In this document: piece by piece, positions 56,655 to 59,057 of the stretch
Layout: the number at the start of each line of letters is the position of its first letter
How positions within the stretch are numbered: position 1 is the stretch's first letter
Source: Acidobacteriota bacterium
GTDB taxonomy: Bacteria > Acidobacteriota > Blastocatellia > Pyrinomonadales > Pyrinomonadaceae
Length of the DNA stretch: 64,000 bases
Direction of reading: 5' to 3'
Assembly: GCA_025463135.1 (NCBI GenBank)
Contig: JAOAPY010000015.1
Coordinates: 248,001 to 312,000, forward strand
Translations under genes and position numbers: made by a program
The notes under the pieces: generated by a model
Databases searched by the model: none
What the model was told of the DNA's origin: nothing
Seen by the model: the letters and a program-made list of their open reading frames with translations, nothing else

Positions 56655-56801
56655 TTTAGTGGTGCAGTTTGATGTCCGATAAGCTTTTGAAGTTTGTCCG
56701 ACGAGCTTCAGCTTGTCGTCTAGCTTCGGAAAATGCTTCCTAACAAGGAAAACGACAAACTAAAGTTTGTCGGACATTTGCTGCGAAACTGACCCACTAC
56801 C
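56655..56801. mobile_element. Miniature inverted-repeat element, long form of repeat B (copy 2)
   Basis: A 147-base element, inverted relative to the one at 27466. The left end is TTTAGTGGTGCAGTTTGATG. The right end, read on the other strand, is GGTAGTGGGTCAGTTTCGCA. The interior holds two family B hairpins. Flanking direct repeat GGGACTGGA is at 56646-56654 and at 56802-56810. Together with the different flank of copy 1 this indicates movement. Confidence 0.8.
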
Positions 56802-56872: not shown

Positions 56873-56902
56873 TTGACAGCCCCAATCCGTCAGGCGTATA
56901 AG
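56873..56902 (+). promoter_or_regulatory. Predicted sigma-70 promoter for the leader
   Basis: A perfect TTGACA at 56873-56878 and TATAAG at 56897-56902, 18 bases apart. Transcription would start near 56909, at the 5' edge of the structured leader. Confidence 0.75.
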
Positions 56903-56908
56903 CACAAA

Positions 56909-57043
56909 TGACAAACGTGGTGAGTTAAGGCGACTTGCGGCCACGTAAAACAAACGGCTAAACAGCTCGGAGCAAGTCCGGAAGGACCCGAACCGAAAAC
57001 TTCTTAGATCAGGAAGTCCCGCGCTGCTTGGCGCGGGATTTTT
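56909..57043 (+). promoter_or_regulatory. Structured leader RNA, candidate riboswitch, class unknown
   Basis: About 135 nucleotides of leader with strong folding potential. Helix 1 pairs ACGTGG (56915-56920) with CCACGT (56941-56946). Inside its loop, GACTTGC (56932-56938) is complementary to GCAAGTC (56972-56978), which forms an H-type pseudoknot. GTCC-GGAA-GGAC (56976-56987) is a competing hairpin that uses three of the same bases, and ACTTC/GAAGT (56999-57017) is another hairpin next to the terminator. Mutually exclusive folds next to a terminator, ahead of a methionine-cycle gene, suggest control by a ligand such as SAM, SAH or a folate. It has GGCTAAA in its linker, as do SAM-II/SAM-V types, but it is not an evident match to them or to SAM-I, cobalamin or SAH classes. 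Confidence 0.6.
57017..57043 (+). terminator. Intrinsic terminator in the leader
   Basis: TCCCGCGC (57017-57024) pairs with GCGCGGGA (57031-57038) across a 6-base loop and is followed by five T. It is 115 bases upstream of the gene start, as expected of an attenuator. Its first T is shared with the preceding GAAGT hairpin. Confidence 0.85.
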
Positions 57044-57047
57044 ACTT

Positions 57048-57157
57048 AGACAGTTGTCTGTGGTCAGTTGTACTTGTAATGCAAACTACGATGCCGTGCC
57101 TGAGAATCCAGGAACTGACCCAAACTCAACCACTGACTACTGACCACTGACGACTGA
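57048..57157. repeat. Family F repeat, copy 3
   Basis: The left arm is GACAGTTGTCTGTGGTCAGT and the right arm is CACTGACTACTGACCACTGA. The arms are inverted and closely match 38731. It separates the leader terminator from the coding start, and may have been inserted there. Confidence 0.8.
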
Positions 57158-57158
57158 A

Positions 57159-59057
57159 ATGAAAGACTTCAGAGAGCTATTGGATCGCGACGGTATCCAC
57201 GTCATCGATGGCGCGATGGGCACGATGCTGTATGCCAAAGGCGTCTATATCAATCGCTGCTACGACGAATTGAATATCAGCAACCCGGATCTGGTGCGCG
57301 AGATCCACGGCGAATATGTACGCGCCGGCGCGGAGATTATCGAAACCAACACTTTCGGCGCGACCGCTCACAACCTGAATCAGTACGGTCTCGAAGGCAA
57401 CCTGCGCGAAATAAACATTTCCGCCGCGCGCATCGCCAACCAGGCGGCGGGCGACAAGGCCTACGTCGCCGGTGCTATCGGACCATTGGGTTTGCGCATC
57501 GAGCCTTATGGACCAACCTCGTACGACGAAGCCAAAGACCTCTTTAAGGCCCAGGCCGAAGCGTTGCTCGAGGGCGGCGTCGATCTGTTCTGCATTGAAA
57601 CCTTTTCCGACATTTCTGAATTAAGGCAGGCGATCCGCGCCGTGCGCGAGCTCAGCGACTTACCAATCATTGCCCAAATAACCATCCAGATTGACGGCAA
57701 CACGTCGTTTGGAACCACGCCTGAGGTTTTCACCGCTCGCCTGGATGAATGGGGCGCCGATGTTGTCGGCCTGAACTGCGGCGTCGGTCCGGCAATAATT
57801 TTGAACGCGCTCGAGAAGATGCGCGCGGTGACAAAGAAAAAACTGTCGGCCCAACCCAATGCCGGCTTACCGCGCGACGTGCAGGGGCGACAGTTCTACA
57901 TGTGCTCTCCCGAATACATGTCCAAGTTTGCGAAGCGCTTCATCCAGTCCGGCGCGCGTTTCATCGGCGGTTGCTGCGGCACCACGCCTGCGCATATCAA
58001 ACTTATTTCGGATGCAGTGCGTGCCGCCTCACCGCGCGCGCAAAGCATGGTGATGAGCACGGGCGCCGCCGCACACGTACACGATATTACGCCGCCCGAT
58101 ATCAAGGTAATTCCACCGGCCGAGCGTTCGCAGTGGTCACGGAAGATTACCAACGGCGAGTTTGTTACTTCGGTGGAAGTGCTTCCGCCCAAGGGCGTCG
58201 ATGCGCACAAGACGCTCGAGTCCATTCGCCTGCTCAAGACAGCCGGCGTCGACGGTGTGAACATTCCCGACGGCGCGCGCGCGCAGTCACGCATGAGTGC
58301 CCTGGCTACGGCGGTGCTGGTCGAGCAACAGATTGGTATCGAATCTGTGCTTCACTATTGCTGCCGCGATCGCAACTTGCTGGGCATGATGTCGGACCTG
58401 CTGGGCGCCGCGGCTTTGGGACTTAGAAACCTGCTGATCATTACCGGCGATCCGCCGAAGATGGGTCCCTATCCTGACGCCACCGCGGTTTTTGATATCG
58501 ACGCCATCGGCCTGACGAACATGGTCAATAAGTTGAACCACGGTTTGGATCTCGGCAATAACCCTATTGGCGAGCCAACAGCGTTCTGTATTGGCGTGGG
58601 TGTCAATCCGGGAGCGATCAATCCTGAAGAAGAACTGCGACGTTTTGAATACAAGGTCGAGGCCGGAGCGCAATACGCGATCACGCAGCCGGTGTTCGAT
58701 ACCGATCAGCTACGCGACTTTATCAAGAGCATTGAACACGTACGTATTCCGATCATCGCGGGCATCTGGCCACTGGTTTCGTTCCGTAATGCCGAGTTCA
58801 TGCACAACGAAGTGCCCGGTGTGCGCGTCACGCCCTCGATCATGGAACGCATGCGCGCTGCTTCGGCCATCAGTAAAGAGGCCGGTCGCGATGAAGGCTT
58901 GAAGATCGCCCGCGAGTCTTTATTGGAAGTGCGCGATATTATTCAGGGCGTGCAGGTGTCAGCACCGTTTGGGAATGTGAAGTATGCGCTGGAAGTGTTT
59001 GAAGCACTCGATGAGTTTCGCGGGCTCGAAGATTCGAATATTCTCCCACCTAACTAA
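57159..59057 (+). CDS. Fused homocysteine S-methyltransferase / methylenetetrahydrofolate reductase
   Basis: Combines two steps of the methionine cycle, 632 residues. Residues 1-300 are the homocysteine methyltransferase barrel with zinc Cys at 207 (GLNCGVGP) and 272-273 (GGCCGTTPAHI). Residues 325-620 are the MTHFR barrel (FVTSVEVLPPKGVDAHKTLE, LLIITGDPPKMGPY, QYAITQPVFDTDQL, IIAGIWPL). It lacks the folate-binding and B12-binding domains of complete MetH, so the methyl donor is not evident; S-methylmethionine or an external B12 protein are possible. Known as the YitJ-type bifunctional protein in Firmicutes. A promoter, leader and terminator precede it. Confidence 0.93.
   Translation: MKDFRELLDRDGIHVIDGAMGTMLYAKGVYINRCYDELNISNPDLVREIHGEYVRAGAEIIETNTFGATAHNLNQYGLEGNLREINISAARIANQAAGDKAYVAGAIGPLGLRIEPYGPTSYDEAKDLFKAQAEALLEGGVDLFCIETFSDISELRQAIRAVRELSDLPIIAQITIQIDGNTSFGTTPEVFTARLDEWGADVVGLNCGVGPAIILNALEKMRAVTKKKLSAQPNAGLPRDVQGRQFYMCSPEYMSKFAKRFIQSGARFIGGCCGTTPAHIKLISDAVRAASPRAQSMVMSTGAAAHVHDITPPDIKVIPPAERSQWSRKITNGEFVTSVEVLPPKGVDAHKTLESIRLLKTAGVDGVNIPDGARAQSRMSALATAVLVEQQIGIESVLHYCCRDRNLLGMMSDLLGAAALGLRNLLIITGDPPKMGPYPDATAVFDIDAIGLTNMVNKLNHGLDLGNNPIGEPTAFCIGVGVNPGAINPEEELRRFEYKVEAGAQYAITQPVFDTDQLRDFIKSIEHVRIPIIAGIWPLVSFRNAEFMHNEVPGVRVTPSIMERMRAASAISKEAGRDEGLKIARESLLEVRDIIQGVQVSAPFGNVKYALEVFEALDEFRGLEDSNILPPN

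Follow-up and report, generated by a model that had tools for sequence, protein, structure and literature searches.

A SAM-II riboswitch leader of Pyrinomonadaceae whose ligand-binding strand may serve as antiterminator

The leader of a homocysteine methyltransferase/methylenetetrahydrofolate reductase gene in a Pyrinomonadaceae genome is, judged by its sequence, a riboswitch of the known SAM-II class and not of a new one. It lies on the forward strand, as do all features described below, at positions 56907–56982 of the window, the whole 64,000-nucleotide stretch of DNA that was analysed. The leader is probably a transcriptional OFF switch in which the core of the aptamer acts as the antiterminator; family membership, conservation, complementarity with covariation and nascent-chain energies were computed, and we infer SAM binding, the direction of control and the kinetics. 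The methionine gene would thus very probably be shut off when S-adenosylmethionine (SAM) is plentiful. More broadly, we lean towards an Acidobacteriota lineage of SAM-II in which the ligand-binding strand is the antiterminator on the terminator loop, and in which the Pyrinomonadaceae add a U10-to-G change that may tune affinity or selectivity. Most descriptions of SAM-II come from Alphaproteobacteria, and the crystal structure was solved for a translational member. The antiterminator of transcriptional members is not specified in the SAM-II literature that we surveyed, of which coverage was partial. Neither the Acidobacteriota core-to-loop antiterminator nor the G10 pocket variant is reported there, which at this coverage is weak evidence of novelty; the use of the ligand strand as antiterminator in Pyrinomonadaceae seems to be little described. 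Some hundred leaders suggest a SAM-II antiterminator with defined base pairs, they show natural variation at a position of the pocket that is reported to be invariant, and the SAM-II regulon is extended across a large, little-studied soil phylum.

The aptamer and its surroundings

The Rfam covariance model of SAM-II (SAM_alpha, RF00521) matches the leader with 45.1 bits (E 6.2e-7 in 64 kb; gathering cut-off 36 bits). The match is full length, covering model positions 1–79, and a local scan of the leader gave an E value of 5.4e-9. No family besides SAM_alpha reached its gathering threshold in the 64-kb window. SAM-V, SAH, THF-II and cobalamin riboswitches were found neither at or above gathering in the window nor among the permissive matches in the leader, where matches to other families were all far under their own thresholds. 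An initial annotation of this DNA had described a leader that fits no riboswitch class and had proposed an Rfam search; the search returned a known class, RF00521. That annotation rightly saw a likeness to SAM-II in a GGCUAAA linker, and erred in taking the rest of the sequence to match no known class.

Helix P1 (ACGUGG, 56915–56920, with CCACGU, 56941–56946) was read directly and sits in the register of the RF00521 stem. The alignment to the model also places the third strand, L1, at 56922–56926 (GAGUU; G8 A9 G10 U11 U12 in 2QWY numbering), with G8 at 56922 and U11/U12 at 56925–56926. The 5′ strand of P2b, UUGC (U20 U21 G22 C23, 56935–56938), is kept in relatives and pairs with GC(U)AA at 56957–56961, within the GCUAAA of 56957–56962. 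The latter belongs to the P2 3′ strand GCUAAACAGC (56957–56966), which carries the SAM contacts U44 and A47 and is the proposed 5′ strand of the antiterminator. The triples and SAM contacts reported for 2QWY are G8-C23-G42, U11-U21-A45, U12-U20-A46, U44, A47 and G22 (PMC3764141); all of these nucleotides are kept in the window leader, position 10 being the exception in the pocket. P2a, for which position pairs were counted, would join GC at 56930–56931 to GC at 56965–56966. These GC/GC pairs are mostly kept in relatives; of four position pairs, one is paired more often than after shuffling (96/116 against 85.5 ± 1.8) and the other three are not. Consensus folding of 13 leaders gave no two-sided changes, as the aptamer hardly varies and P3 is misaligned in the alignment.

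The aptamer is preceded by a sigma-70-type promoter, TTGACA-N18-TATAAG (56873–56902), read directly, with its −35 box at 56873–56878, its −10 box at 56897–56902 and a spacer of 18 nt. The −35 box and P1 are kept in relatives: TTGAC stands 5′ of P1 in 86 of 91 leaders of the family Pyrinomonadaceae, mostly at a distance of 37–42 nt. Downstream, folding predicts a hairpin P3 (UCGG...CCGA, 56967–56996) capped by GUCC-GGAA-GGAC, with its cap strands at 56976–56979 and 56984–56987. Read by eye, the cap GUCC/GGAC appears as GUUC/GAAC or GUUCG/CGAAC in several leaders of this type, which suggests compensatory change. A second predicted hairpin, P4 (ACUUCUU/AGGAAGU, 56999–57017), has ACUUC...GAAGU counterparts in 18 family leaders. 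Sequence and folding then indicate an intrinsic terminator at about 57016–57043, a GC-rich hairpin followed by a U-tract, whose loop and inner stem contain GCUGCUUGGC (57023–57032), the proposed 3′ strand of the antiterminator. The bifunctional homocysteine S-methyltransferase/methylenetetrahydrofolate reductase gene (57159–59057, ATG at 57159) was identified by NF006396 with 740 bits against a cut-off of 453. The initial annotation had named the promoter, P1 as ACGTGG/CCACGT, the GTCC-GGAA-GGAC hairpin, the terminator and this gene, and all are borne out by the sequence and, for the gene, by the NF006396 match. Between terminator and start codon (57050–57155) the window holds degenerate short repeats (ACTGACTACTGACCACTGACGACTGA), and relatives' leaders such as L049 and L055 have TTTTAGATTTTGATTGCCGATT-like short repeats in the same place.

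The leader shares with previously described SAM-II riboswitches (RF00521; Corbino et al. 2005, PMC1273637) P1, the P2 pseudoknot, the GCUAAA strand, U11/U12 and UUGC, and also a promoter just 5′ of P1, an intrinsic terminator after P2 and a methionine gene downstream. It differs in having G in place of U10 and in its acidobacterial host. P2a is short, about 2–3 bp, whereas it is 5 bp in 60% of SAM-II (PMC6061858), and the complementarity of its terminator loop extends to the core, whereas in previously described SAM-II it involves the P2a strand alone. SAM-V has a nearly identical SAM pocket in an H-type pseudoknot, but is translational (PMC6061858) and has no match in the window.

Complementarity of the core to the terminator loop

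Read in reverse, the terminator loop complements the P2 3′ strand, and in most family members its sequence is GYUGUUURGC. In the window, GCUAAACAGC (56957–56966) forms nine of ten pairs with GCUGCUUGGC, the tenth being an A-C mismatch. A run of at least seven pairs between core and terminator was found in 76% of 78 family leaders and in 10% with shuffled cores; for 42 other Acidobacteriota leaders the values were 57% and 6%. No such excess was seen in 57 alphaproteobacterial leaders (4% against 7% with shuffled cores), a set from which loci that were Acidobacteria despite their label had been removed. A minority of leaders have no core-loop complementarity, including the upstream unit of the tandem pairs L033, L288, L289 and L290.

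Covariation with the loop is seen at core position 7. When the register is set from core positions 1–6 alone, this position is paired in 43 of 52 distinct leaders, as raw counts regardless of relatedness, against 27.1 ± 3.0 after shuffling, and none of 2000 shuffles reached this number. The pairs are C-G (29), G-C (10), G-U (3) and U-A (1), and the C and G variants each occur in more than one family. Covariation of core positions 8–10 with the loop was not significant in the same leaders. The initial annotation had looked to covariation across homologues for support; it is found here, between core and terminator loop, and not between the two strands which that annotation had paired.

Loops of the UUUAG type as a generic habit of this genome's terminators were considered and rejected. 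In 464 kb of the genome, 13 hairpins resemble terminators and only that of the SAM-II leader is strongly complementary to the core; the other exact match to the loop in the genome has no U-run after it.

Folding of the growing RNA gives GCUAAACAGC paired with GCUGCUUGGC, enclosing P3 and P4, as the lowest-energy structure when the 3′ end of the transcript lies at 57032–57034. By 57036 the terminator outcompetes it. The finished terminator reaches −49.1 kcal/mol and the forced antiterminator −42.1; because the complete terminator is more stable, the antiterminator would have to act kinetically. At least seven core-terminator pairs appeared in some nascent fold in 77 of 78 family leaders and in 38 of 42 other Acidobacteriota leaders, but also with 43% and 34% of shuffled cores, respectively, and at 43% the test is weak taken alone.

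In the switch that we propose, the RNA would start from the promoter, and its first ~60 nt would fold into the SAM-II pseudoknot (P1, P2b with UUGC on GC(U)AA, and the short P2a). Without SAM, GCUAAACAGC would be free once polymerase has made the 5′ arm and loop of the terminator, and would pair with GCUGCUUGGC to close a junction that holds P3 and P4. This core-loop pairing would delay or prevent the terminator and the gene would be read. With SAM, U44 and A47 would hold the ligand and the P2 3′ strand could not leave P2, and the terminator would then fold and turn off the homocysteine methyltransferase/MTHFR gene. The initial annotation was right in its idea of a riboswitch leader that carries a terminator and precedes a methionine gene, and in that of a pseudoknot whose stabilisation by ligand sets the terminator, although the pseudoknot it named was the wrong one. 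SAM-I before yitJ of Bacillus subtilis is a transcriptional OFF switch too, and the gene it controls is a fusion of this kind. Its aptamer fold is unrelated to that of the window leader, and SAM-I was not detected in the window. Most SAM-II riboswitches are held to be transcriptional (PMC6061858; see also PMC2258182).

Alternative readings and pocket position 10

The pseudoknot named initially joins GACTTGC (56932–56938) to GCAAGTC (56972–56978). These strands are indeed complementary, and all seven pairs form an unbroken run in 23 of 92 family leaders, compared with 2% after shuffling (at least six pairs in 34 of 92, shuffles about 9%), which would speak for a new riboswitch class built upon them. 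In 36 of the 92, however, the runs with GACUUGC are of 3–4 pairs only, and the 5′ strand hardly varies, so that the pairing comes without covariation. Since GACUUGC contains UUGC, the pairing would moreover exclude the canonical P2b, while the SAM-II core is conserved. As a functional, fold-defining pseudoknot it was rejected on these grounds, as not generally kept in relatives and exclusive of P2b, and a new class was rejected on the RF00521 match above cut-off; its probability is close to nil. A switch of the alphaproteobacterial kind only, in which the P2a 3′ strand and the next bases pair with the terminator 5′ arm and the core-loop complementarity is incidental, deserves more weight and is still unlikely. 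Complementarity along the aptamer does peak at the P2a strand in Alphaproteobacteria, 6–7 nt into the core, and in the window CGG at 56968–56970 can pair with CCG at 57019–57021. The Acidobacteriota peak, in contrast, lies at the core, at its first base, and the covariation of core position 7 is with the loop; the downstream bases match their cognate 5′ arm not significantly better than the arms of other leaders (p 0.065). Pairing of the core with the terminator loop remains our preferred antiterminator.

The remaining alternative concerns the ligand. Position 10, U in canonical SAM-II, is G in the window leader (G56924), and U10 is reported to be completely conserved in SAM-II (PMC3764141), yet of the Acidobacteriota leaders fetched, 85 have G10 and 69 have U10. 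Among the remaining loci, G10 was apparent in five more cases, of which three lay on Acidobacteria contigs and two were artefacts of the pattern. A change from U10 to G might signal another ligand, such as S-adenosylhomocysteine or another SAM derivative, bound by a fold that is still SAM-II. We regard this as very improbable: U11 and U21, which recognise the sulfonium through their O4 atoms, are kept, likewise U44, G22 and A47, and the same two genes lie under U10 leaders in relatives, Pyrinomonas among them. As the U10 leaders of Pyrinomonadaceae precede the same two genes, the ligand of the G10 leaders is most likely unchanged from SAM-II. G10 is read as a variant and not as non-membership, the RF00521 score being above cut-off, and we retain SAM as the probable ligand.

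The SAM-II leader of Sinorhizobium meliloti metZ shares a predicted termination of transcription on SAM binding (PMC9373788), and differs in that alphaproteobacterial leaders as a group have no core-loop complementarity. At alphaproteobacterial loci (L139–L256) the sequence of the P2 5′ strand recurs in the 5′ arm of the terminator (ACCGGYC, CCGGCC), which gives the P2a 3′ strand two possible partners. From its sequence, this arrangement solves the switching problem in another way.

Distribution and target genes

One other SAM-II copy over the cut-off is present in the genome, at 54862–54937 of contig C40, and the gene after it is metH-like (first 320 residues scanned). SAM-II matches were obtained in 97 of 99 genomes of Pyrinomonadaceae and in 151 of 162 of the class Blastocatellia (both with E up to 0.1), and in 66 of 396 genomes of the phylum Acidobacteriota (E up to 0.01). 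Elsewhere in the class, the targets include threonine synthase, O-acetylhomoserine sulfhydrylase, aspartate kinase, peroxiredoxin and short-chain dehydrogenase. Considering the window gene, the second copy and the targets in the class, SAM-II leaders adjoin genes of methionine and SAM synthesis. The peroxiredoxin gene, which follows SAM-II leaders in two families (L130, L288), is a surprising gene to find under a SAM switch.

Aptamers of other Blastocatellia families (L120, L129, L131, L134, L138 and others) score about 20–33 bits, and many of them have GGCGAUUU in place of GGUGAUUU. Because these scores are below the Rfam gathering cut-off, standard annotation will miss such aptamers.

Tandem SAM-II units (L033, L071, L072, L074, L120, L288, L289, L290) lie roughly 115–230 nt apart, usually with a terminator each, and precede threonine synthase, peroxiredoxin or short-chain dehydrogenase genes. 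In several of them the downstream unit has core-loop complementarity and the upstream unit does not. Tandem arrangement as such was dismissed as a novelty, with 44 examples already reported (PMC9481103).

Upstream of the promoter, positions 56671–56801 of the window are a dispersed repeat, of which the last ~49 bases (ending in ctgacccactacc) are repeated dozens of times, almost unchanged, in the genome. One copy (C40:54987–55035) lies a short way upstream of the second leader of SAM-II type, and on contig C53 another part of the repeat is arrayed in tandem.
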